Below, in pieces: positions 6,720 through 58,430 of a stretch of DNA of 64,000 nt; the first letter of the stretch is position 1; each line of letters opens with the position of its first letter. A model generated the notes under the pieces. It was not told the DNA's origin. It was given only the letters and a program-made list of their open reading frames with translations, and did not search any database. Position numbers and translations under genes: made by a program. The stretch comes from Pomacea canaliculata. Lineage: Eukaryota > Mollusca > Gastropoda > Architaenioglossa > Ampullariidae. Location: the NCBI RefSeq assembly GCF_003073045.1, contig NC_037592.1, positions 13,048,007-13,112,006 on the forward strand. Reading direction: 5' to 3'.

Positions 6720-7010
6720 GAACATCACAAGTTGCATCATCGAACATGGCATAATCGACATAAACATCAACCTTTAAATCATCTCACGAACAGACAACAA
6801 CTTTCCTCTCCACCATACACATCGCCACCCGCCACACCCATACCACTCAGCTGCGGCCAAGCCCTCTTCAGTCTTCATCCAGACTTGGCTTATACCCTCT
6901 TTTAAGCCCCTCCAATAACCAGCTTCACTACGCAAGTACAACACCACACGCTCTCCACTGCAGGCAGCTGTGGTTTCCTACCTGACGTGAAGTTGGTGGC
7001 ATCTTGTTAA
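6720..7010 (-). pseudogene. Last exon of KH-NERD-helicase gene, noisy copy A1
   Basis: The reverse complement matches exon 8 of the genes at 23652-30469 (-) and 44346-51547 (+), including the blocks that encode helicase motifs V and VI. Indels break the frame. The rest of the gene would lie in the N gap immediately to the right. Confidence 0.6.
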
Positions 7011-7088
7011 CATTTAAAGATATTCATTGAGTCACATGTTGGTAACAGGTACACACAACAGACGGAAGAAAAACATGATTATCTCCTT

Positions 7089-10358: not shown

Positions 10359-12081
10359 ATGCAGCAGATCCCATCAGATGAAGAGTTTTGTGTGGCATCA
10401 CTGGCTGACCGAGAACTCAGCGTGGCGATAGACGATGACGTGTACAGCGGCCTGGATTGATCTCCTCTGCCACCTACCCGTCTCTTGTGGAAGGACCTGG
10501 CGTTCGTGGCTACCCTTACAAAAAGGAGGCAGAATTGTAGGATTAATTGGATAGATATTATGTATCTCTCACATAGTTTAAATACATTTCTACATAAGTA
10601 TTTGTTTTTCTTTTAAAGGCCGAAATATTTTTTTACAAATCAGATGCTCCAAATGTATCTACTGTTTTTTTTTTTTCAAGTACCGTCGAATGTAAGGTAT
10701 GACACTTTCAAGGTCTTAAAGAGGCAATTCTTTGCGAGGTACTTTAAGGTCTACAAATTTGATTCTTAACTTGTATACTGTTTACTTTTGTTATTTAAAA
10801 AATAATGTAATTAAATCGTAACAGAATTTTGAATATTTTAGTTTCGTATGTTAATAACGCAAATCAAATGCAGCTTGTAGTCAACTGTATCGATTGTATC
10901 TAAACACCTTTGATCCAGGTTGCATTTTTGAACACTCAGCTGATAGACGGAGGACGGACGGTGATACACAGTACAGCAAGAGTGGCGCCTGAATACAGAG
11001 AAAGCGGAGTCTTTGGGAGATTTCACAGACTAATTCGTAGCAACTACATCGGGACACCTAACATTTGCTACATTGCCTTAACGGTCACTGATATCACCAT
11101 GACAGCGATTGGACAGAAGGCTTCTAAGACGTATCGACAGGTCACCGAGAAAGTATGTTAACAACCTTGATAATGTCACCATTTTTTTAATATTTCATAG
11201 AAGTAAAGTGTTTCTAATTGTCACAAAAATAACTACATACTTTTAACAAACAATTTTATTTCCTAATAAGTATTTGCTAAAATGCTATGAAATTTCTATT
11301 AGACTTGTGATGTATAAAAAAATAATTGGGATTTAGTACTTTTAGAAGAGATTAAATAAAGTTATAATATAGGTATTTTTGAATGTTTATTGGGTAATGT
11401 AGACATATTTCCTAATTATGTTATCCTAATGTCTGTTTTAAAAGTGTTTGCAAATCAAAACTTAAACAGCATTAATTCTATTTCAGACAATCACAACTGT
11501 TGAGCTGACATCATTTAACGTTTTAATGTCAAGTGATAACTACAACACTTTTTCCGGGATTAAGAAACTCTCTACTGACGATATGACATCTATCATGTCT
11601 TGTGAGGACGGCCGCCTTCACCATCTCTTCCCAGATGGAAGAATTATTCTAGACTGGCAGCCATACCGACTGATGGCAGCTAACGTGCCCCTCATCACCA
11701 ACACCTGCACACACCGCGTCTTCCTGGCTACAGACGCCAACAGTCCTCCTTGGACACACAGGCTTGCTGTCTGTCCCTACAGTCCTGTCTGCAGGAAGCT
11801 ACTTCGTGCAGTAAAGGTACCCAGTACATCAGATCTTTTTGGCGAGGGAAGTGAAGAAGACCTGCGCGCGCATATCACGTGGCACCTGTTGCGATCAGCT
11901 GAGCGTAGGAAACGGAAATGTTGTCTTCAGCATCTTTCACACCAGAGGGTTGGATGACATTATCGCAGATCTCGGGCAAGACCTTTTCCACTTAAAAAAA
12001 TCAGTTTGTCCTACGAGAACTGATCGTGTTAGAACAAGATGTGTGTCAAAGGTCGAACGACCCGTTAGCAGTCGCATGTGA
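10359..12081 (+). pseudogene. NAT16-like GNAT acetyltransferase, broken copy B1
   Basis: Exons correspond to those of the intact gene at 62022-63742: 10359-10536, 10919-11152 and 11487-12081. Exon boundaries keep GT and AG, including the strong donor GTATGT after exon 2. Small indels break the frame in all three exons, for example an extra A in CCGAGAACTCAG, the doubled G in AGAAGGCTTC and the CACACAGG expansion in exon 3. In exon 3 one frame stays open for 143 codons through the middle but is wrong at both ends. Diagnostic bases match the B gene. The breaks are probably sequence error. Confidence 0.7.
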
Positions 12082-23630: not shown

Positions 23631-24682
23631 AGCTCAGGGTTCAGTTAGTCGTTAGGAGACAATCACAAGTTGTGCAGTGCATCGGGACATGCATTGAAGT
23701 CGGACATAAACATCAACCTTTAAATCATTCAAACAGACAACAACCTTTCTCTCCAGGCCATTAACACGATCGCCACGCGACACCCATACCACGTCACTGC
23801 GGGCCATGGCCACGTCTTCTAAGTCTTCATTCTTCATGACTTGTGCTTTGATACCCGCTTCTTTAAGCCCCTTCAATATATCCGAGCTTTCACTTACGGC
23901 ATAGGACAACACCAGCACGTCTCTCCACTGCAGGCAGGGCTGTGTTGTGCCTACGCTGGACGTGAAGGTTGTTGTGGCATTCTCTGTTAACATTCAAAGA
24001 TAGTTTCATTTGTGAGTCACATGTTGGTGATACAGGGTACACACAGACAGGGACGTGAATAAAAACAGTGATTTTATCACATGATGACATAGCATGACAG
24101 ATAGACTAACACACTTTATACTTCACAGGACTGTCTCACCTGTTTGTTATTTATCACACTGTTCACTGTTCATCTGTCAACAGATGTTACACAATACAAT
24201 ACCCACACCTACCCGTAACACCAACATAGACTGTGTAGGAAGCTGGCCACCTCACGACCGCACGTCACACAGTCAACTGGCTTGTCACCTGAGTGACCCT
24301 GACCTCGGTGATACAGTCGTTTGACTGGCGGGCCGTCTGTGTGGTCGGGCACACCTCTCTCACTGTATGGCTGTACATCATGGTGTTCAGCGATAAACCT
24401 GTCCTTCTCGACTTCCCTGACGACGGTCGGTGGAGAGCGGAGTGGTCTGGTTAAATATTCCACTGGCCAGCCGGAAGGTGCGTATCCATGGAAACAACTT
24501 GCCGCCCAAAGATGGAGATGAGGAACTTGTATCAGCAGTTTGTCACACAAAGTCTTAAAGTGTTGCGACCTTTCACAGAGATATTACAGAACATTAAGAT
24601 AAGCGTGTCTTCTGTCACTAAACGTGTTTGTGTATTGTGTCGGACGAATTTAATTAGTGGCGTCATCGTCTTCGTTCTGTAA

Positions 24683-24765
24683 ATAATGATAATGCAGATT
24701 TATATAGCGCATGTCACTGCTGTATAGTAGACTCAATGCGTTTTACAAATATTTTTCTGGAATAT
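24683..24765. repeat. Dispersed TATATAGCGC repeat fragment, left arm
   Basis: Reads ATAATGCAGATTTATATAGC and then ACTCAATGCGTTTTAC. It resembles a short repeat tail (TATATAGCGC...CAAAGCGCTTTAC) common in invertebrate genomes. It is in intron 6 and is repeated in the right arm at 50455-50525. Confidence 0.45.
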
Positions 24766-25096
24766 AAAGCCATGAATACTTATCCCCTGGATGGCTCGCA
24801 AACGATTTTTTTTTAAACTAACTCCTAGAACGAGGCTATCGACAAATAGCTTCCGGTTTATCGAACGACGACAGTGGTTATGTCACAGAATATGCGAGAG
24901 TAACAACAATAAATAAACAGTCAGGAGGTGGTTTATACTGTTACTTAGAAGGATGCCACTCTGCAAGTGTCAAATATTTCGGTTAAAATTTTTTTTTTCG
25001 TTTTCGCGGGCAGGTATATCGAAAGAGCAAGACGCGTGGTGAGTAGCTCTCATTGATGATGTAGGCCGTTCAGACAAACGTTTACAACTATTAAGA

Positions 25097-25811
25097 TCCA
25101 AGATTCGTTAGAGCGTTGGTCTCGGCATACAGTCAGCCATCCACCTATATACGTCCGTAATAAAACACCTAAACCTCACATTTACACAGAGACAAAATGT
25201 ATTTAACACATATTATGATACATACAAAAACATAGCGGCAAACAATATACAGGAAGTTGATTAAAACATTCACCATCAAGGGTAGGCTCAGAGTAGTCCT
25301 GGCCAGCCAATGTAACCCTTTGTAAATTTCGTATCGATTTTCTGTTTATATTTCAAACTTGGAACTGTTTAATATGTGACCAAATGAATCGATACTCAGG
25401 TCGATTAATTGACTCAATAGGTATCTGGATTAGTATTAAGGAGTAAGTTAACAAGACACCTTAGATAATTAGGCAAAATAGGGAATTAGTTTATTTGCAT
25501 GTTCTTTTTATCCCTTCATTGTTTTGTTAAGCTCTCGGCATTTGTTTCTTGCTACTTTATAAGTATTTTTGCTTTCACTAAAATTGCGTTGTGTTGTTTG
25601 TTGAGGCGTGCGCTGGGGGCTCAAGTCGGTAAATAGCGTTAGTCAGCGTTAATTAGTAATTTAATGAAAGTGCATGATTATGTCTGCGTGGATGGCGAGG
25701 TCGCAAGTGTAGTAAACACCTTACTACGAGGCTCCGCCAATCACACGTGCATAGACCTCATAGGATAGCAACAGGTATACGAAGAAAAGAACGCTAAGCC
25801 AGTCAGAAAAT
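25097..25811. other. About 710-bp insertion in intron 6 of the left copy
   Basis: The right arm reads straight through the equivalent point (50062-50093), whereas here about 710 bp intervene. The insert starts near CAAGATTCGTTAGAGCG and ends near CAGTCAGAAAATTC. I see no transposon ends or coding sequence. A tRNA-like stretch at its left edge (TTAGAGCGTTGGTCTCGG) hints at a SINE, but no B box follows. Confidence 0.55.
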
Positions 25812-27499
25812 TCTATTGGGCACTTTTATTATGTAAGTAAGACGCCCATCGGCGAGTATTTATTTTCTTTCGCATGAAAGAACGCGTGTCAGTGCTAGTG
25901 TTCTAGTCTGTCTGTCCCGATAGTGTGGTGGTTCTAGACATTTCTACAATCACATGACATGAGTACCACTGACCCTACGTCCGAACCCGCTTCATCAGCG
26001 ATGACGTACAACGACCCTCCGCTCGCCGCCTGTGACAAGTCGTTGACGGCCTTCTCCACGTCTTCACCATCATCAAGGTCATACTGCAGGAGGCAAGGCT
26101 GACCGGGTGAGACACCTGCTGACATTTGTGTGTTTACTGTCTGCAGCAACAGGCGATACATCATGAAGCTCGCTGCACGACTCCCCCAACACGTACTGAC
26201 AACGTAGACGGGGTGACCACCAAGCAGCCACTGTATGGCCATCAGCAGCAGCACCACAGTTTTACCTGTACCGGGCGGTCCGGTGACAAAGAGTCTGGGA
26301 GGTGCAGTGTTTAATAGCTCCACTTGTTCCGGGAAGAGTGTGATGACAGCAGTGTAGCACTGTCCTGTCCACCACACGGCCTGACCCAGGGTCTTGACAC
26401 TCACACGTGGAGGACATGTACATGGCACAGTCACTGATGTCGCCGGACCACAGAATCTATAAAAACAAAGCATTTACATCTGTAACTAACAAAGTGTTAT
26501 ACAAATCCACTGAAACATAACTATAAATTGCAAAGCGACCAATTTCAATGCCATAGTATGGCCTGCTAAATGCTATTAACAGCATGAACAGTGAAACGGG
26601 AATGTTATTCTCAGAAAATGAGTTAAATTTGACTTAATTCCAGTAAAGACAATTTAAACTGTTTAGACTGGTCAAACCAAACACCGAATCTCTAAATAAA
26701 ACGCGCTGACATTAAAGCCTTTATTAGTTTTCACTTTGAATGTTATCAATGTTTTGCCATGACATGAGGCAGACGATAGGTGCAGGATCACGATAATGAT
26801 ATGTCTATGACATCTAATTTGTCCTGTAATTTTGATTTTGAGATCACAGACTGCAAACGAGTGAAAGTGACAAGAAAAAAATATTTAACTTATGAGAAAG
26901 TGTAAATAAATTTTTATTGTAAAACATAAGTGTTGTACAGTACATTTACATAAAGCAAGAAACAAGGAAGAATTTTGATTTATTATGACATTATTTTGAT
27001 TTTCATTCTGAGTCGACAGCCGATTATGTCCAATTTTCTATCAATGATTACTGGATGAATCAAGATTGTAACTGTCAGACCAGTTTTAATCTCTCCCTTG
27101 ACGTTTATAATAATAACAACAATTATTTGAAAAGAAGCATAGTGACTATAAAGCAGTGACCTGGCTACCAGACTTTTGTACAACATAATAGTGAGTTGAT
27201 TGTCAGGTCCAGCCCCAGCCACACGTCGCTGCCACCAGTGTCCGAGTTCCCTCAGCACGTGACTACTGACGTCCAGGGGGTCTTGGGGTCAGACAACTGA
27301 TCACAGCACAGACACAGTCTAGCGATGTCGGCGGGATCTGTTGTTCCCAGACACCGGCACAGGTCCTTCCAAAAATATACAAAGAAAGATATGATGTAAA
27401 ATGTAAGCAATCAAATTAAAAATATATGTATATTTAGCGATTTGAAATCGATGAGTGGTTTTAGCATAGCATTAAAAACATTTAAATATTACTAAGGAC

Positions 27500-27522
27500 T
27501 AGGGTTAGGGTTAGGGTTAAGA
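27500..27522. repeat. Short interstitial telomere-type repeat
   Basis: AGGGTTAGGGTTAGGGTTA, just over three units of the metazoan telomere hexamer, in intron 4 of the left KH-NERD gene. It is too short to be functional evidence. Confidence 0.7.
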
Positions 27523-27539
27523 CGAAGGTACGCTTACCC

Positions 27540-27877
27540 TGCATACGCACGTTTCACACAAACACACACACAACACAACACAACGCTAAGAGAGCCCGCA
27601 GATGAAGATGACGATGAAGGGATGTGTTGGTGAATGGAGTCGAAGAGACACAAATTCAGAGGAATGTCACAAAGAGAGGTATTACGAAGAGGGCGGAGAA
27701 ACCCGTTGTGTTTTCCCTCTCTCTCTCGGCTATTTTTAGAACAACTGCTTTTCTCTTATATTTGATGTCACTTTCTGCTTCAAGTGACGTGGAACAAATG
27801 ACGTACACAAGACGTCAGACACGAGACGTCAGACACGAGACACCGTTCATACACGAGACATCATGAGACCTGCCACA
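27540..27877 (-). mobile_element. LTR-like dispersed repeat, copy in intron 4 of left gene
   Basis: On the minus strand it begins TGTGGCAGGTCTCATG, has a TATA-like AAATATAAGAGAAAAGCAG, then ATAGCCGAGAG, and ends in a GTGTGTTTGTG tract. The same sequence in the same gene-relative orientation is at 47819-48135, but there it is in intron 5 of the other gene. A TGTG start and an internal TATA box suggest a solo LTR. I could not find a convincing target duplication. Confidence 0.4.
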
Positions 27878-30049
27878 ACTCACTACAAGAACTTTGGTAT
27901 GATAAAAACAGGAGACAGGTGCTTTTTAACGGGACAGAACGTTCGGTTTGAAACGGCTAAGTTATAATTATCAAACTTCAACAAGGGACCACGTGCCAAG
28001 TTAGGAAGAAAATGAGAAGAATCCTAGGCATTCATTTTTACCCTTCTGTCAATTGCTTTCTTGTTCAGATAAGTTTGCTAACTGTTAAAACTCTATTCAA
28101 CATTTCAAAAAACATAATCAATCATTATAACATCATATCGTCTACTTGTCATATCCGAAAAGGAATCAGTCAGTTGAAGAAAGTTAGGGTGTAAATATGA
28201 ATACGCTTTATGAGTGTATAACGAGGTCACAAAGGTACCTGCGTTAACTGAGTGTCGCCGGAAATGGCCTGTTTGACCTGATGAGCGGTAAGGTTGGGGA
28301 AAGCCATCGTTTTAGTGATGCACAGACCAGGAGAGATGTCAGATACTAGGTGTGATAACATGGCCTCGGCCTTGTCCAGCTGAGAGACTGCGTCTTTCAA
28401 TTTTTTTCTAATGTTGATGTTTATATCGTCAGGTGACATCTTCAGAGTCTGTGTGTTGTCACCAAACGCCTTTACTTGACAGACAACAAAGCCGTAATGT
28501 CGGTGAATAAGAAGCACATCAAAGTCGCCCTGTTTCCATTTCTGAGGGTGAGCAGGAGGAAGGTTGGCAGGTCGGGGGAGCTGGGCAGCCGCAGCGGCAT
28601 AACAAGGTTCCCCCAGGTACTGGCCGAACGAAAGCTGAGTCATTCGAATCATGACTTCTTTGTTCTGTTCACACAGTCTGTCCAGACAATAAATGACACG
28701 CTTCGTAGCTGCATCATCTCTGATATCACTTTCATGCACGCGAGGAGGCTGAGGTACTAACGTATCTGCAGCGGAAGTAGTCTTTGCAGACTGGTTGGAC
28801 TGACCGGCCTCTATAAGAGCTGACTGAAGGACCAGAACTTCCATAGCATGGGTCAGCTGCTTGACCATGGGCACGCGGTTGACGTGGACAGGAGGCAGGA
28901 AGTAGGCGCGAGAGTCGAGATGAGGGAAGGCGGCCTCAACCCACTGTAGCCAGAATGTCTGGGCCTGTCTGATAATGGTATCTGTATCACAGTAATCATT
29001 AGCTTCAAGATTTCTTTTTTTTTTTCTAGACTTTTCTAATAAATAATATGAAACATCATTGACTATTTTCTTTCAGTTGTCACTTGTAAATAATATTAAC
29101 TGGCTTACGATGTTGGTAGACATTGTTACTTTAGCTTCTGATGTTTGAACTCATAGACATTCTTATTCATTTAATATCGGATGATACTTTGTGTAACATA
29201 TGTTTATGGTGAGTGTTTGGTGACTTTGTTGCCCAAGTTGTAACGGCGCTTTTTAACTAATTGTCATTGCTTGAATTATTTTGTTACATATTTTTAAAAG
29301 ATGCATCTGGTTTTAATGGAACAAACCACTCTTTATAAGCTAACCTCTGGATTGATGAGGCTGACTGCTTCTTGGATTTGAGATTGAACACCACGTATGA
29401 TGAGTATCTTCATTCCTGGCACAAGTGATTGGTTCTGGTAAAAGTCTACCTCAGCGCCTGACCTCTCTTTCACCTCTTCAAGTGGACGAGTGTTCTCTAT
29501 AATAAAATAATAATGAATGTTTATATATCCTGACACTATTTTTCTATGTCCATTTATTGTTTGTAAAGATACTATTAATTATCACGAGAAAATGTGAAAA
29601 AAATAGCGCAAATGATTATATTATTCTACAAAAGGATTTTAAATCTCTCAGAAAAAAGCAGAGATTCATCGCCACCTTTCTTCTCATATTCATCGTACTT
29701 ATCCTCGAAGTTATCGTCATTATCTTTTCTTTGTCAGCCTTCAAAATATTTCAAGTGCATTGATGTATTCATCTAAATTTAACCATTCGTGTGCCTGCTT
29801 TTCAACCTACTTTAGTTCTCCGCAAATAATAACTAAAACTAAAAAATTAGGCCACCTGTATCTTTAAGTTCTTCAGCCTGTTCATCCGTCACGGCGTGTA
29901 GGTAAACTTTGACCCGGCCACCGCCAACGCAGCTTTCTCTTCCTTTACGGCGTTGCCCCTAAAATATTTATTACAGTTAGAAATAAAAGTTTTAAGACTG
30001 AAGATCCTATATGTATAAATCAGGTGATAAGACGTATGACGTGAAATGA

Positions 30050-43176: not shown

Positions 43177-43800
43177 CAGGGTGTCCAAAATGTCTGTGCA
43201 CTATTTGAAATAGCTGTAACTGTGTAAGTATAAGTGATATAAATAACTTGTTAAGAGAATTCGAAAAGCTGGTGATTTAGTTTGTTTTGCTTTTAAAATT
43301 CCTTTTAATTTAACTTAAAAGTTACTTATTTTTTCAGAATCAGAATGTGCCATGGCTTCAATAGAGGAGAAGTAATTTTTGAAGGGCGTGTTGTTAATGG
43401 TGACATCAGTTGGTGTCGCAAGATTTCCTTATTGCTAAACTTGGTCTATTAAGACTGATAGAAAATACAGTATTTCAACTCGATGGTGCTCCCTATCACT
43501 TTGCTTTCCATGTTAGGCAGTTTCTACATGAGAAATTCCCTAACAGGTGGATTGGAAGAGGTGAACTTTTTCCGAATTTGGCATCTCCCAATTCCCCATG
43601 TTTGACTCTACTGAAATTTTGTTGTGGAGATGTGGAAAACTAATGTTTATTAATTAAAACCTCTATCTTTAGAAGACTTACAGCATAGGATAATTGATGT
43701 GATTGCTGGTATTACTGAAAAGTAGCTTCAAAATGTTTAATGAGAACTAAATAATCGTACTACGCTTTGTGTTAATAATGGTGGACATCTTGAAACATAA
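43177..43800 (+). mobile_element. Decayed Tc1-mariner-type (IS630) transposon
   Basis: Starts at a TA with CAGGGTGTCCAAAATGTCTG, typical of this group of ends. Inside, 43473-43560 encodes FQLDGAPYHFAFHVRQFLHE and KFPNRWIGRG. This matches the FQQDGAPPH...FP.RWIGR block holding the second catalytic Asp of these transposases. The frame near 43760-43800 ends NNGGHLET, as their C-termini do. Stops lie between. The N-terminal two thirds are missing and no right inverted repeat is visible. Confidence 0.75.
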
Positions 43801-44345: not shown

Positions 44346-46920
44346 ATGCCTGGTCATCCACAACCAGCTACAGCACAGGTGAGACTGTGAGGATCGTGAT
44401 GAACGACGCCCTGAGCCTCGCGTTGACATTGTACGGGTGGGATAAATTTGAGAAGGTTACAAAGAAAAGGGTTTTAGGTGCAGTTTCATGTCAATAATAG
44501 AAATATACTTAATTGTATAATTTAAACAATCGCAAACTAAATGACACTCAAGGAACAATGTTGTTGCGATTTTTATCAGCTCGATAAAATTCAAATGATC
44601 ATCATCTATTTTTACTCGCAATCATCCATTGTGTTGTTCTCATTAATATATGTCTTTAATATGCAAGCATATCAAATGTGTTCTTCATCATCATCATCAT
44701 CATCATCATCATCTACTCTGTTATAAATATAAATATTTTAGGGAAAGCACCGTGAGAAAGGAGGTGAAAGAGAAAGTCCTAAAGGCGGTGGCCGGGTCAA
44801 AGTTTACCTACACTCTGTAACTGATGAACAGGCTTTACTGCTTACAGATACTGGTGAGACGAATTTTTAAAATACTTCAATCTTTCAGGAATTTTACATG
44901 AAAGTAGGATAAAAAATCAGCGAGACGACTAGTTTAGATGTTAAGATTTTGATAAATACAGGCGTTACACAAATGATTAGCCATATGAATGTCAGCGTAT
45001 TTACTATTAATATCTTCAAAAGAAATTAAAAATTGTAAAGGTAATGGTGTAAGTATTCAGCATTAATCATCAATCTTTTTACAGGAAATGCAAGTCCCCT
45101 TGAAGAAATAAGAAAGATGTCAGGCGCTTGCGTAGACTTCGACTCTAAACCATCACCTGTGCCAGGTATAAAGATTATCATCATACGCGGTGTTCCTTCT
45201 CAAATTAATATGGCGGTGGATCTCATCAGTCAGAAGATTGGTTTTGAGGTTTGTTTCTTTATTTATTTTTGTCAATTAAATAGCAATCTTAATGAAGTGG
45301 TAAAGAAATTTGTCAGGAAAAAATGAAATTAAACAACTTAAAGTTAAAACAGTTATATGCATATTTTAACCACCTTGACTTCTAATACAGATACCATTAT
45401 CAGACCAGGCCCAGACATTCTGGCTACAGTGGGTTGAGGCCGCCTTCCCTGATCTCGACTCTCGCGCCTACTTCCTGCCTCCTGTCCACGTCAACCGCGT
45501 GCCCATGGTCAAGCAGCTGACCCATGCTATGGAAGTTCTGGTCCTTCAGTCAGCTCCTGAGCAGGCTGGTCAGTCCAACCAGTCTGCGACCAATACATTC
45601 ACTTCTCAGCCTCCTCGCGTGTATGACAGTGACGTCAGAGATGATGCAGCTACGAAGCGCGTCCTTTGTTGTCTGGACAGACTGTGTGAACATAACAAAG
45701 AAGTTATGGTTGGAATGACTCAGCTTTCGTTCGGCCAGTACCTGGGAACCTTGTTATGCCGCTGCGGCTGCCCAGCTCCCCGACCTGCCAACCTTCCTCC
45801 TGCTCTCCCTCAGAAATGGAAACAGGGCGACTTTGATGTGCTTCTTATTCACCGACATTACGGCTTTGTCGTTTGTGAAATAAAGGTCTTTGGAGACAAC
45901 ACACAGACTCTAAATATATTACAGCAGGATATAGACAATATTACTAGAAAGAAAACGAAAGACGCCGTTTCACAGCTGGACAAGGCGGAGACCATGTTGT
46001 CTCACCTGGTGTCTGACATCGCTCCCGGTCTGCAAATTACTAAGACTATCGCCTTCCCCAACCTCACGACTGGCCAAGTCCAGCAGGCCATCTCAGACGA
46101 CACCCAGCTAACTCAGGTTTCACAACCCTTCTTGATACACTTGAACATAAAGCAAAATCACGTTTACACGATATAATTCTTTATCTTACACATTTGTAGA
46201 GTATTTTTATAAAAGAAAAATAAAAGATATGAAGTTAAAGTATTTGGCTGTGTATGTTTTCTTAATCTTGATGAATAATAAATGTGTTTAGTTAGCAAAC
46301 AAGTCTTACATTGGACTTAGTTCAGCGGTGAAAATGCACAGCCTTACCTTCAAAAGCCCTTACTGACTTCTACACTTGGCACTTGTATGCACATACTTAT
46401 GAAAACTTTCAAAATAGAAAGTTCTTATTTCTTTTTTGAAAACATTTTTGCATCCTATTATCACACTAATGTTCTGATAATTTAAAATGTGCTTGATGTT
46501 TTATGCTAATAACGCTCAGTTCACTACAAATAATTCTTGCCTCCTGAAAACACCTTTTTTATTTGGCTTTACATCACTCCGTTTTTTTCAGGACCTGTGT
46601 CGATGTCTGGGAACAACAGATCCTTCCAACATCCTAGGTCTGTGTCTGTGCTCTGATCAGTTATCTGACCCCAAGACACCATGTGACGTCAGTAGTCACG
46701 TGCTGAGGGAACTCGGACACTGGTGGCAGCGACGTGTGGCTGGGGCTGGACCTGACAGTCTCATGAATTCACAGGTGTACAAGAGTCTGGTAGCCAGGTC
46801 AGTCCTTGTTGGCTGTGGTGTTTGCTATGATGAAAAATAAAAATTTTGAGTATCTGTTAGCAAAGTAAGATAGTAGTGGTTGAATCAATATATTTTGATG
46901 ACGACGACGACGACGACGAC

Positions 46921-47001
<81 letters not shown>

Positions 47002-50000
47002 ACAGTCTTACAGCAAAGACCAGGACACAAGGAGAAACGATTGTGAAGATGTCTCCCTACTTTTAGCCCCACACGACAATTCGCTAACCCCCTACTTCGC
47101 GGAATTACCTTGACACATATCAATATGATGACCTTGGTGCTTGCAAATGTGACATAAACGTGAAGGTACCACAAGCGAGAGACAGTTTTTGATGGATCAG
47201 AGAAATATATAGACAACTGGTAAAAAGAAGACAGCAATGATGAAAAGAAAACAAACAAGGGAAGGTTGGCGAAAGAGAAGATTAAAAAGCAGAAGGAAAA
47301 GGGCAAGTGAGGACATAATTTATTTAGCGAAAGTGTTTGTAGTAGTGCAAGCTGAGTCAGCTTTCTGCAATCCTGTGTTTAGGTAATTAATGCCGCTAAT
47401 GATGAGGAAGATGACGGGAAAGGCAACAACGACGGTGTTTATTACTGGACTAATGTTTCCAACAACAGGACAGGAATATGGTACCTATACCAACTATTGC
47501 TTTGGAAGAAGACCAATATGGAGTGTCACATAGGGCAGCTGCGACCATCAGCACAGCAACATTGGTGGACGAACACATTATTAGCTTGGATGACCGCATC
47601 AATACTGTCCATCATCACAAAGTATGGAGGGCTCGACTACAAGTAGACAAGTCAACAAGGAAACACATATAAACAATGAAGAGGAAATCATGGCAACATT
47701 TTTGATGGCCGAAAAGCCGTGACACTGGTGAGAGAGACAAGGGGAGACAAGTGGTATGATATCAAATAAATAAAAATTTAAATAAAAATTAAAAAACACT
47801 ATGTGTGTATATAATAACTGTGGCAGGTCTCGTACTGTCTCGTGTACAACGGCGTCTTGTGTGTGTGTGTGACGTCTTTTGTGCGTCATTTATTCCAAGT
47901 CATTTGAAGAATATAAAAGAAAAGCAGTTGTTCTAAAAATAGCCGAGTGAGCTGGGGGGGAAGGGGGTGAGAAATACAACGGTCTTCTCCTCCATCTTCT
48001 GTATGACTCTCTCAGTGACAATCCTCTGAACTTGTGTTTCTTCCACACATCTCTTCATCGTCATCGTCATCGTCATCTGCGGGACTCGTCGTGCGTTGTG
48101 TATGTGATACTTCGTGTGTTGCGTGTGTGTGTGTGTATGTGTGCGCCATCAACGGAGGAGCTCACAAGGGAACCCCCTCTCACAAAGCACCTCTCAGATG
48201 AAGAACTCAACAGCTTGTCACTCAGCCCTTCATCAGTCAGATACCTTGCCACTCTCAGGGAGTCGAATGTTTGTGTCAGGACAGTGAGTGAGGTATCACA
48301 ATCATTCTATGGGATGGATGCAAGGGATGGTCACAGTCGAGTTGTCATTAAGTCAAGAGACTTTATGCTTTATATCACACTAAGCAAGATTTTCATTTAT
48401 TGGAGATTGTACAAAACCCGAGGCGTGCCTCCGTTACAATTCATTGGATGATGCTGCACCCCACTGTACATTACATATTAATCATGGTCCATTTACTACA
48501 ATTACATATATTTCCCGTTCTCCATTTCTTGTTTTACAATACAGTATTACAATATCCCATTTATTTCGGCGTGATATTGTGTCAGTATCGAGAAGCCTCA
48601 CAATATTATTTGCACGAGTCCTCGCATCCCACTAACGCCGGCTCTGCATTTCCCTAAACGGAGGCGAGCACAGTGGGGGTTTTTTTTTTCAAGATGTAAA
48701 GGACAAGAGTCATTGAGGCAGTGTGACAGAGAAAACCACAACAATCAGGAAGTCGTAGAAATGATCACTGATTGGAACACAAAGTAGCGCAGAGAGGAGA
48801 CGGTGGAGACAGTAACAAGAGCAAACTGACTTGTGGGGATGGTAGAGGGACACAAGCTCAGAGTGGGGCGAAGGCCGTCAACAGCAACACAACACAGTCA
48901 GTTGATCGTGAATCGCATGCGAGATGGAGCTGGCAGCCATTGCAAATTGTGTAGAAGAGGTGTGACTATCGCCTGTACAATCCGAAGATCGACAGAAGCT
49001 AGTTGATAGAAGCAGCAGAAAGGAGATGTCTTATGCGACTTATCATGACAAAAACTTAAGCTAAAAATGATATCAGATTTTAATCTTTCCATTTTTTCTG
49101 CTGAAGGGGTTCAATATCTTAATTGACCTGTCTCAAAAGGCTTTACATGTTTCCTAAAAAACGTTTTACGTGATTTTATCAAAATTACATGCTTTGTACA
49201 TTGGCTATGTTACAAACATAAATTGTTTTTGCTCGTTAATTCAGTGCCATTAATGGATGTTTATCGTTTTCTAAAAAATGTTTTCATTTTGAGTTAACTA
49301 AAAAGTAATACAGCTTTCAAATGTCATTATTTAGGTACAAACGATAAACGTTTAGAATAAAAAATAATAAAAAAGGTTCAGGATGTGAATGATAATGCAT
49401 TTATATTTTCTTCTTGATAAAACGATTTAAACAGGTTTTGTGGTCCGGCGACATCAGTGACTGTGCCATGTACATGTCCTCCACGTGTGAGTGTCAAGAC
49501 CCTGGGTCAGGCCGTGTGGTGGACAGGACAGTGCTACACTGCTGTCATCACACTCTTCCCGGAGCAAGTTCACCTGCTATACACGGCGCCTCCCACACTC
49601 TTTGTCACCGGACCGCCCGGTACAGGTAAAACTGTGGTGCTGCTGCTGATGGCCATACAGTGGCTGCTTGGTGGTCACCCCGTCTACGTTGTCAGTACGT
49701 GTTGGGGGAGTCGTGCAGCGAGCTTCAAGATGTATCACCTGTTGCTGCAGATAGTAAACACACAACAGTCAGCAGGTGTCTCACGTGGTCAGCCTCACCT
49801 CCTGCAGTATGACCTTAGTGATGGTGAAGACGTGGAGAAGGCCGTCAACGACTTGTCACAGGCGGCGAGCGGAGGGTCGTTGTACGTCATCGCTGATGAA
49901 GCGGGCTCGGACGTAGGGTCAGTGGTACTCATGTCATGTGATTGTAGAAATGTCTAGAACCACCACACTATCGGGACAGACAGACTAGAACACTAGCACT

Positions 50001-51547
50001 GACACGCGTTCTTTAATGCGGAAGAAAATAAACACTTGCCGATGGGCGTCTTACTTGTATAATAAAAGTACCCAATAGATCTCAATAGTTGTAAACGTTT
50101 GTCTGAACGGCCTACATCATCAATGAGAGCTACTCACCACGCGTCTTGCTCTTTCAATATACCTGCCCGCGAAAACGAAAAAAAAAAAAAAAACAAAACA
50201 AAAACAAACAAACCAAAAATTAAACAGAAATATTTGACACTTGCAGAGTGCCATCCTTCTAAGTAACAGTATAATCCACCTCCTGACTGTTTATTTATTG
50301 TTGTTACTCTCGCATATTCTGCTGACATAACCACTGTCGTCGTTCCATAAACCGGAAGCTATTTGTCGATAGCCTCGTTCTAGGAGTTAGTTTAAAAAAA
50401 TCGTTTGCGAGCTATCCAGGGATAGGTATTCATGGCTTTATATTCCAGAAAAATATTTATAAAACGCATTGAGTCTACTGTACAGCAGTGACATGCGCTA
50501 TATAAATCTGCATTATAATTATTTACAGAACGAAGACGATGACGCCACTAATTAAATTCCTTCCACACAATAGACAAACACGTTTAGTGACAATAGACAC
50601 GCGTATCTTAATGTTCTGTAATATCTTTGTGAAAGGTCACAACACTTTAAGACTTTCTGTGACAAACTGCTGATACAAGTTCCTCATCTCCATCTCTGGG
50701 CGGCAAGTTGTTTCCATGGATACGCACCTTCCGGCTGGCCAGTGGAATGTTTAACCAGACCACTCCGCTCTCCACCGACCGTCGTCAGGGAAGTCGAGAA
50801 GGACAGGTTTATCGCTAAACACCGTGATGTACAGCCATACAGTGAGCGAGGTGTGCCCGACCACACAGACGGCCCGCCAGTCACTCGACTGTATCACCGA
50901 GGTCAGGGTCACTCAGGTGACAAGCCAACTGACTGTGTGACGTGCGGTCGTGAGGTGGCCAGCTTCCTACACAGTCTCCATGTTGGTGTTACGGGTAGGT
51001 GTGTATTGTGTAACATCTGTTGACAGATGAACAGTGAACAGTGTGATAAATAACAAGCAGGTGAGACAGTCCTGTGAAGTATAAAGTGTGTTAGTCTATC
51101 TGTCATCATGTGATAAAATCACTGTTTTTATTCACGTCCCTGTCTGTGTGTACCCTGTATCACCAACATGTGACTCACAAATTAAACTATCTTTGAATGT
51201 TAACAGAGGATGCCACAACAACCTTCACATCCAGCGTAGGCACAACACCGCCCTGCCTGCAGTGGAGAGACGTGCTGGTGTTGTCCTATGCCGTAAGTGA
51301 AAGCTCGGATATATTGAAGGGGCTTAAAGAAGCGGGTATCAAAGCACAAGTCATGAAGGATGAAGACATCGAAGACGTGGCCACGGCCCGCAGTGACGTG
51401 GTATGGGTGTCGCGTGGCGATCGTGTTAATGGCCTGGAGAGAAAAGTTGTTGTCTGTTTGGAAGATTTAAAGATTGATGTTTATGTCCGACTTCATTGCA
51501 TGTCCCGATGCACGGCACAACTTGTGATTGTCTCTCCTAACGACTAA
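44346..51547 (+). CDS. KH-like + NERD + SF1 helicase-like protein, intact right copy
   Basis: Eight coding exons: 44346-44378, 44742-44853, 45085-45248, 45391-46116, 46592-46797, 49435-49912, 50652-50994 and 51207-51547. All have GT-AG borders and compatible phases, giving 800 aa. Residues about 30-98 form a KH-like fold (PLEEIRKMSGACVDF, IIIIRGVPSQI) with a degenerate GxxG loop. Residues 247-270 are the NERD core: GDFDVLLIHRH, then CEIK (D250, D252, E266, K268), a PD-(D/E)XK nuclease pattern. Residues 415-800 are an SF1-type ATPase: Walker A GPPGTGKT 473-480, Walker B IADEAG 566-571, LTRPLRSPP about 607, NGLERKVVV 762-770, MSRCTAQLVIV 786-796. The start ATG and exon 1 (MPGHPQPATAQ) are shared with the inverted copy. 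Two homopolymer losses (GGGGG to GGG, CCCCC to CCCC) change residues about 223-232 but cancel out. A role in nucleic-acid processing or defence is inference. Confidence 0.8.
44684..44713. repeat. (ATC)n microsatellite in intron 1
   Basis: Nine or ten ATC units upstream of exon 2 of the plus-strand gene. Confidence 0.9.
46898..46999. repeat. (GAC)n(GAT)n microsatellite in intron 5
   Basis: Over 30 trinucleotide units. The poly-Met and poly-Ser frames across it are artefacts of the repeat. It is absent from the corresponding intron of the left gene. Confidence 0.95.
47819..48135 (+). mobile_element. LTR-like dispersed repeat, copy in intron 5 of right gene
   Basis: Begins TGTGGCAGGTCTCGTACTG, carries ATATAAAAGAAAAGCAGTTG and ATAGCCGAGTGAG, and ends in a GTGTGTGTG tract. 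It is homologous to 27540-27877, which lies in intron 4 of the other gene. Confidence 0.4.
48136..48450 (+). other. Unrecognised coding-like segment in intron 5
   Basis: An open frame continues from the LTR-like repeat and encodes EELTREPPLTKHLSDEELNS and then SLSLSPSSVRYLATLRE. The composition looks more protein-like than the neighbouring intron. It may be the start of a retroelement body behind the LTR-like repeat, or a former exon. It is not conserved in the left gene. Confidence 0.25.
50455..50525. repeat. Dispersed TATATAGCGC repeat fragment, right arm
   Basis: Inverted counterpart of 24683-24765, in intron 6. Confidence 0.45.
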
Positions 51548-57516: not shown

Positions 57517-58000
57517 TCATTCCTGTTCTAACATTAAAATCTCCAAGTTGCAGTACACATTCATCGTCCTAATTAGCTTAAGTTTCTCGAAAAGCTCATC
57601 TGCTATCATAAACTGGGTTTGCAAGTGGCACATACACCGCGCACGAACAAGAATTTGAGTTTCCTCTTTGTATGGAATACTTATTTCAAAAGAGAAACTA
57701 TTGTCTGAAACCAGCTGCTGAACAAGACGGTAATACTTCAGAAGGCTAACATCTATTATACTAATAAAATCAACATGCTCAATAATATGAATATATCTCA
57801 ACAACTCGTTACGAATAAGTAACACTATGACTCCGGATCTGTATCTAGAACATTTTCTAATTTTCATAAAACTCGTAAAGCCAGTCAGGTCAACCTGATC
57901 CATCTCGTCTAGTTTGGTTTCTATTTCAGAGATTAAATCATGTACCTCAGGAAACTTTTTCTTAAAAGTGAAACCACAAATGTTCAGAGATAAGAAGCGT
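57517..58000 (-). mobile_element. LINE endonuclease (EEP) fragment
   Basis: A minus-strand frame reads LRFLSLNICGFTFKKKFPEV, then ISEIETKLDEMDQVDLTGF, then SRYRSGVIVLLIRN. This matches the start of the apurinic-like endonuclease of non-LTR retrotransposons (LslNv.G...K, ETkLde.D, RsGGi.llir). The frame ends before the catalytic DFN/SDH blocks, so it is a fragment. Confidence 0.7.
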
Positions 58001-58430
58001 AATCGGATACTTGTCAGCTTCTGACTGCTGCACGTTTTAGCTTTAATCTTTGTAAAGATTCATGGTTGGTCAAACAAGAGTATTTCCACGAAGTAACATT
58101 AACTGATAAAATGTTATGATTTGCCGTCGGCAGTCGCAAATACTCAGTACATTGTTGGCTAGCTAATAGAGGAAACAGACTGAATCTACCCCTGGGATTA
58201 CATATGGCCTGTTGACCGATCACAGGGGTTACATCTTGAGGTTCAAAAGAAACGCCAGCTACAGGTGTATCAGACACCTTTCCGCTCCACCTGTTCTACA
58301 GTCTCGCCCTCATCCTGTGAAAACTCCTAACGACTGTACTGCTGAATCCTGTCATTTTCGTAGGTTAGTGTTGGGACAGCAGCTAATAATTAATTTTTCA
58401 GATGCTGGTTGTTGTTGAGCCTAAAGCGAG

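Follow-up and report, generated by a model that had tools for sequence, protein, structure and literature searches.

A large caenogastropod family of putative NERD nuclease-SF1 helicases, with a KH-like domain in Pomacea and a putative immunoglobulin-bearing branch

Within a 64,000-nucleotide stretch of the Pomacea canaliculata genome (contig NC_037592.1, positions 13,048,007 to 13,112,006 of the forward strand; hereafter the window), a single eight-exon gene encodes a KH-like domain, a NERD nuclease domain, and a superfamily 1 (SF1) helicase. This gene is a member of a large family, of which well over a hundred copies are present in the P. canaliculata genome. We propose, with a probability of about 0.5, that its product is a soluble intracellular nuclease-ATPase with an immune role, belonging to a NERD-SF1 helicase family that was expanded in caenogastropods. 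The architecture is a new one on the known nuclease-helicase theme, to which a branch of putative immunoglobulin (Ig) receptors is added. If expressed as read here, this is a large animal nuclease-helicase family in an invasive snail and other caenogastropods that was not found in the literature searched. Three questions would thereby be opened to experiment: whether nuclease-helicase immunity of the bacterial kind exists in animals, whether an Ig receptor can signal via a helicase-like tail, and what the nature of the Schlafen linker domain is.

The gene occupies positions 44346-51547 of the forward strand of the window, and its exons, separated by GT-AG introns throughout, join into a stop-free frame of 807 amino acids:

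44346-44378, + strand: exon 1, amino acids 1-11, with the start codon
44742-44853, + strand: exon 2, amino acids 12-48, first half of the KH-like domain
45085-45248, + strand: exon 3, amino acids 49-103, second half of the KH-like domain, without GxxG
45391-46116, + strand: exon 4, amino acids 104-345, NERD nuclease domain with D250, D252, E266, and K268
46592-46797, + strand: exon 5, amino acids 346-413, helical connector
49435-49917, + strand: exon 6, amino acids 414-574, first RecA-like domain with Walker A (GPPGTGKT) and Walker B (DE)
50636-50994, + strand: exon 7, amino acids 575-694, with LWAAS, PLRSPP, and the conserved H662-H667-C675-C678
51207-51547, + strand: exon 8, amino acids 695-807, second RecA-like domain with GLERKVV, SRCTAQL, and the stop codon

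That these domains belong to one eight-exon gene, as the initial annotation had proposed, is borne out by alignments to related proteins, which cross all seven junctions. Junctions 1 to 7 were spanned by 10, 34, 42, 147, 136, 112, and 106 related proteins, of which 5, 20, 32, 118, 132, 23, and 22, respectively, were ungapped within about six amino acids; the last two junctions are the least precise, because of the many alignment gaps there. An alternative end of exon 6 at 49912 was rejected, as it breaks the frame, which the site at 49917 keeps. Intronless copies were dropped as proof of splicing, as the long open stretch examined (L051) is interrupted after its NERD exon. Intron 5 contains a long GAC/GAT trinucleotide repeat (window positions 46900-47000).

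The domain anatomy of the gene is well supported. The helicase part consists of two RecA-like domains carrying Walker A (473-480), Walker B (D568-E569), and motifs III to VI in order, among them motif V (769-777) and motif VI (R795), so that the Walker A, Walker B, and motif V/VI equivalents claimed earlier could all be located. We take LWAAS, PLRSPP, GLERKVV, and SRCTAQL to represent a motif III-like element, a motif IV-like element, motif V, and motif VI, respectively. The catalytic aspartate and ExK motif typical of PD-(D/E)XK nucleases (D252, E266, and K268) are all present in the NERD domain, and together with D250 are numbered as in the initial annotation. Across the related proteins covering each position (isoforms included), D252 was kept in 146/150, E266 in 134/150, and K268 in 136/149. 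Motor residues were retained in similar fashion: the Walker A lysine in 126/129, the Walker B aspartate and glutamate in 118/121 and 117/121, and the arginine of motif IV, glutamate of motif V, and arginine of motif VI in 113/114, 98/99, and 88/91. Between motifs IV and V, the H-H-C-C cluster (H662 in 110, H667 in 104, and C675 and C678 each in all 113 proteins) is a mark of the family and resembles a metal site, which may bind zinc.

For the KH-like domain, exons 2-3 alone scored 24.9 bits against KH_1 (Pfam cut-off 21.5), while the full protein remained below it (20.4); the relative P0032 scored 50.2 bits, and the element order beta-alpha-alpha-beta-beta-alpha is visible in the predicted model of another relative, P0008. 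The region also matches a KH domain of FUBP1 (E = 1.8e-4). Unlike FUBP1, KSRP, and NOVA1, however, the window protein carries a single KH-like domain that has lost the GxxG loop and is joined to a nuclease-helicase. As this loop is missing from the window copy, and its pattern was found in only one of 39 KH-bearing relatives, canonical RNA binding is doubtful: of the RNA-binding KH-like fold proposed earlier, the fold stands and the binding is in question. When searched for with a profile derived from KH sequences of the family itself, the domain was detected in 39 of 71 Pomacea proteins, in 0/86 proteins of Littorina, Nucella, Batillaria, and Babylonia, and in 0/5 further proteins, although a very divergent KH domain could escape a profile made from Pomacea-like sequences. 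Ten long or divergent family proteins were additionally scanned for partner domains, and no KH or Ig domain was found at E <= 0.01 in the nine that were non-Pomacea or unassigned. Judged by sequence, the KH-like domain looks like a Pomacea add-on.

The extent of the family was assessed in the genome of P. canaliculata (440 Mb, 24 contigs) and among proteins. At least 162 matches to exon 4 were found in the genome (150 of 570 candidates scored), located mostly on contigs C11, C7, and C14 among the matches listed; the copies are arranged in arrays. Three protein searches yielded 162 distinct family proteins (Pomacea 71, Littorina 38, Nucella 21, Batillaria 18, Babylonia 9, and others 5), and all matches that could be assigned to a genus were from caenogastropods; because no more than about 8,000 candidates were scored per search, distant relatives may be missed. 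The phylogenetic spread that the initial annotation asked about thus covers at least five genera, with the KH-like domain found in Pomacea only. A tree built from 100 sequences, namely the window protein and all those with 75% core coverage, contained clades of 25 Littorina (support 0.93), 10 Nucella (0.79), and 36 Pomacea sequences including that of the window (0.33), along with smaller or single lineages, which suggests that the family grew mostly by expansion at the genus level. Among 30 distinct exon-4 copies near the query, 28 were open and two contained stops. The open copies are under purifying selection, with a median ratio of nonsynonymous to synonymous divergence (dN/dS) of 0.36; the ratio stayed under 1 in 377/378 pairs. 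Synonymous difference along exon 4 varied about sevenfold among these 28 loci (0.06 to 0.45), which might reflect gene conversion between copies. The initial annotation could not name a KH-containing version in an animal, and the KH-like, NERD, and SF1 architecture was indeed not found in the open-access literature searched; it is no lone fusion, however, but part of a large family. The available portions of PMC6129957 and PMC13336756 did not contain the terms "helicase", "nuclease", or "immunoglobulin".

Part of the family appears to be linked to Ig domains. At five Pomacea loci, the predicted proteins contained, by eye, a signal peptide, Ig domains, a hydrophobic stretch, and a NERD region; Ig domains scored above a Pfam cut-off in four of the five. 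Searching the genome with one Ig domain gave 151 matches, the best 33 of which fell into 17 clusters, and searching with an Ig-type NERD exon gave 154 matches (the best 13 at >=85% identity), of which 17 with at least 60% identity were used for comparison. About 17 loci with Ig exons, 16 of them followed by an Ig-type NERD exon, were found in two regions:

Contig C11, 22.04-24.16 Mb: Ig and Ig-type NERD loci
Contig C7, 14.47-14.50 Mb: Ig and Ig-type NERD loci

It could be argued that the Ig domains and the NERD-helicase are separate adjoining genes, and their fusion an artefact of gene prediction. The fusion does rest on predicted NCBI proteins and genomic order, the Walker A lysine is missing in seven of eight Ig models with a transmembrane stretch, and one of the 17 Ig clusters had no Ig-type NERD exon within 10 kb. 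At the other 16, however, such an exon lay 2.2-6.8 kb downstream on the same strand. On C11, this held for 14 of 15 clusters, against a mean of 0.54 and a maximum of 4 in 5,000 trials of random placement confined to 22.0-24.2 Mb, and neither the upstream side (0/15) nor the opposite strand held an Ig-type NERD exon within 10 kb. These 16 arrangements are not independent, as they are duplicates of one founding arrangement; they indicate that the arrangement was kept and say nothing on how often it arose. In the five loci examined, a transmembrane exon lay between the Ig and NERD exons in all five, exons for the first RecA-like domain and the middle part of the helicase followed downstream in four, and the last exon in three. 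In addition, P0029 is annotated as a single chain of 952 amino acids that begins like a signal peptide and continues with two Ig-like domains (scoring below Pfam cut-offs), a transmembrane stretch, a NERD domain, and a whole helicase. The ExK glutamate, kept in 134/150 related proteins, was lost at all five loci (K, M, deleted, K, and K). We consider separate genes the unlikely explanation.

The Walker A lysine was kept in 4/4 of these loci, and in P0029 it is the lysine of ExK that was lost, so that one of the two ExK residues was missing in all six Ig-type sequences examined. The sequences suggest that the Ig branch encodes receptors with a nuclease-dead, motor-intact tail, which would be located in the membrane and take part in signalling. 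A coupling of nuclease loss to helicase loss (Fisher 2.6e-7) was rejected as stated: annotation shortens the Ig models, and the genome shows helicase exons downstream.

Nuclease-helicase combinations in one chain are also found in bacterial defence, Nhi (PADLOC PDLC02372) being one example. The Nhi model matched 12 of 44 family members (best E = 7.8e-4), with its best stretch at the P-loop in each of the four members inspected for this model. In PADLOC C3a187 ("NERD+UvrD") and RTasNERD-Hel, two NERD-helicase defence proteins of bacteria, a single chain likewise carries a NERD domain with an SF1 motor after it. Their models matched weakly, at stretches of the NERD domain or of the motor, and in the order expected; they differ in being bacterial, with models of 559 and 519 positions. 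For all these models, E-values were weak and the best stretches short. To our knowledge, no bacterial NERD-helicase defence protein carries a KH domain, an Ig domain, or the H-H-C-C cluster. Searches of prokaryotic genome contigs (7 pattern stretches) and viral contigs (600) confirmed no relative, while plasmids gave one match over the motor (E = 0.08; an "ATP-dependent helicase" encoded next to an AAA family ATPase) and phages one to a PhoH-like protein (E = 0.4); these searches were limited by sensitivity and are not proof of absence.

The initial annotation had pointed to NERD-helicase fusions in bacteria; the helicase resembles group III Schlafens as well as bacterial SF1 enzymes. Foldseek returned SLFN11 (E = 1.5e-12) and SLFN14 (E = 3.2e-10) as top matches of the predicted model. 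The helicase profile matched that of SLFN5/11/14 (hhalign E = 3e-5, and 1e-7 with a longer profile), and none of 500 shuffles reached any of the three Schlafen helicases. An hmmsearch of the PDB listed SLFN5 first (E = 0.0072, not significant alone), and the Schlafen-type helicase PF09848 matched 24 of 44 members at E <= 0.1 (best 5.4e-4), below the 24-bit cut-off among the matches listed. The resemblance to Schlafens thus holds by modelled fold and by profile; UvrD fits equally well by fold, tying with SLFN11 in a VIA comparison. No N-terminal Schlafen core nuclease was detected by Pfam in the window protein at E <= 1; the KH-like domain occupies that place.

For the predicted NERD model, the best structural match was the Schlafen linker (PF21026), which is termed "GTPase-like" in Pfam and "of unknown function" in an excerpt of PMC8789055. 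Homology to this linker was not supported by sequence (hhalign E = 0.26, with control pairings at 0.04 to 0.57 and a Schlafen profile of three sequences only), and the link is structural. Linker scores were within those of shuffles (88/500 reached SLFN14 and 246/500 SLFN5; SLFN11 was unscored), and against the linker profile the family's NERDs did not outscore shuffled ones. In the open-access literature searched, the single paper containing both "Schlafen" and "NERD" treats them apart in its available part. It is a tentative and rather doubtful extension to see in apple snails a two-armed defence on a single chassis, in which soluble KH-NERD-helicases would cut nucleic acid and about 17 transmembrane Ig receptors would carry the same NERD-helicase as a cytosolic tail, its nuclease inactive but its motor working. 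In this reading, the chassis and the C-terminal half of the vertebrate Schlafens would be homologous; the unexplained Schlafen linker would then be a nuclease domain whose active site was lost, and snails would have retained the active form.

In the mechanism we propose for the soluble enzymes, ATP would power the motor as it binds and travels along nucleic acid that is foreign or out of place, and the adjoining NERD domain would cut this nucleic acid, much as the nuclease-helicase immune systems of bacteria do. The sensor/effector role suggested in the initial annotation likewise remains an inference. The KH-like domain, which was found in Pomacea only and mostly lacks GxxG, would more likely serve recognition or assembly than classical RNA clamping. 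In the approximately 17 loci of the Ig branch, the same chassis would stand behind Ig domains and a transmembrane helix, and the tail of these surface receptors would work by ATP-dependent assembly or signalling, rather than by cutting.

Several observations weigh against this proposal. Exon 4 of the window copy alone scored 16.5 bits against NERD (PF08378; cut-off 22.1), whereas the relative P0040 passed the cut-off (28.5 bits) and NERD matched 21 of 44 relatives at E <= 0.1; the Pfam check named in the initial annotation thus found KH_1 in exons 2-3 but not in the full protein, and NERD in P0040 but not in the window copy. Foldseek with the NERD model of the window copy gave no match at E <= 0.001, and the Schlafen matches had low TM-scores (about 0.3) and a large root-mean-square deviation, as if the domains stood at other angles. 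D250 was kept in only 102/150 related proteins, with glutamate in 29. The window copy was not among the NCBI proteins found (none on its contig of 43,189,359 bases; proteins of 0.55-1.75 times the query length), and it may be unexpressed, impaired, or misassembled. Finally, large copy numbers are also found in families without an immune role.

Among the alternatives, the family could be a tandemly expanded nuclease-helicase of germline or genome maintenance (repair, small-RNA, or transposon control) that does not face pathogens. NERD and SF1 parts suit repair enzymes, AddAB, UvrD, and EndoMS were among the structural matches, and the apple-snail genome paper, in the part available, reports a recent burst of DNA/hAT-Charlie transposons. 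Separate genus-level clades and the fusion to Ig receptors would, by analogy, suit conflict roles better, and a maintenance role seems the less probable one. That the window copy and much of the family are decaying or non-functional is quite improbable: E266 is missing in 16/150 related proteins, two of 30 exon-4 copies contain stops, and the window holds an out-of-frame stretch and a damaged second copy (below), but 28 of the 30 copies are open, their median dN/dS is 0.36 (in copies chosen as near the query), and retention at D252, E266, K268, and the counted motor residues is at least 89%.

The second copy in the window is inverted, at 23655-29955:

29851-29955 and 29351-29536, - strand: KH
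28239-28967, - strand: NERD
27160-27368, - strand: exon 5
25970-26458, - strand: first RecA-like domain
24227-24568, - strand: middle exon
23655-23990, - strand: second RecA-like domain
6757-7071, - strand: possible last-exon remnant of yet another copy (39% identity, E = 3.6e-5)

In the second copy, the ExK glutamate was replaced by glutamine and exon 5 is broken in frame. A third copy (C3:13126382-13131787) kept all 14 residues checked. Compared with it, residues 223-233 of the window copy (45748-45780), 11 codons in all, are out of frame, flanked by two differences in homopolymer length with a net length change of three bases; this may stem from two genuine changes or from misassembly. Given these codons, the damaged sister copy, and the lack of an NCBI protein, claims on function should rest on the family rather than on the window copy.

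Interleaved with the NERD-helicase copies are three repeats of a reading frame matching Hisat_C (PF24066, histidine N-acetyltransferase C-terminal; cut-off 27 bits):

11466-11954, + strand: Hisat_C, 41.6 bits
19618-20199, + strand: Hisat_C, 46.8 bits
63122-63739, + strand: Hisat_C, 52.8 bits

By eye, and judged by their motifs, two further frames without a Pfam match at E <= 0.01 resemble pieces of a mariner-type transposase (43404-43643, + strand) and of a long interspersed nuclear element endonuclease (57520-58059, - strand).
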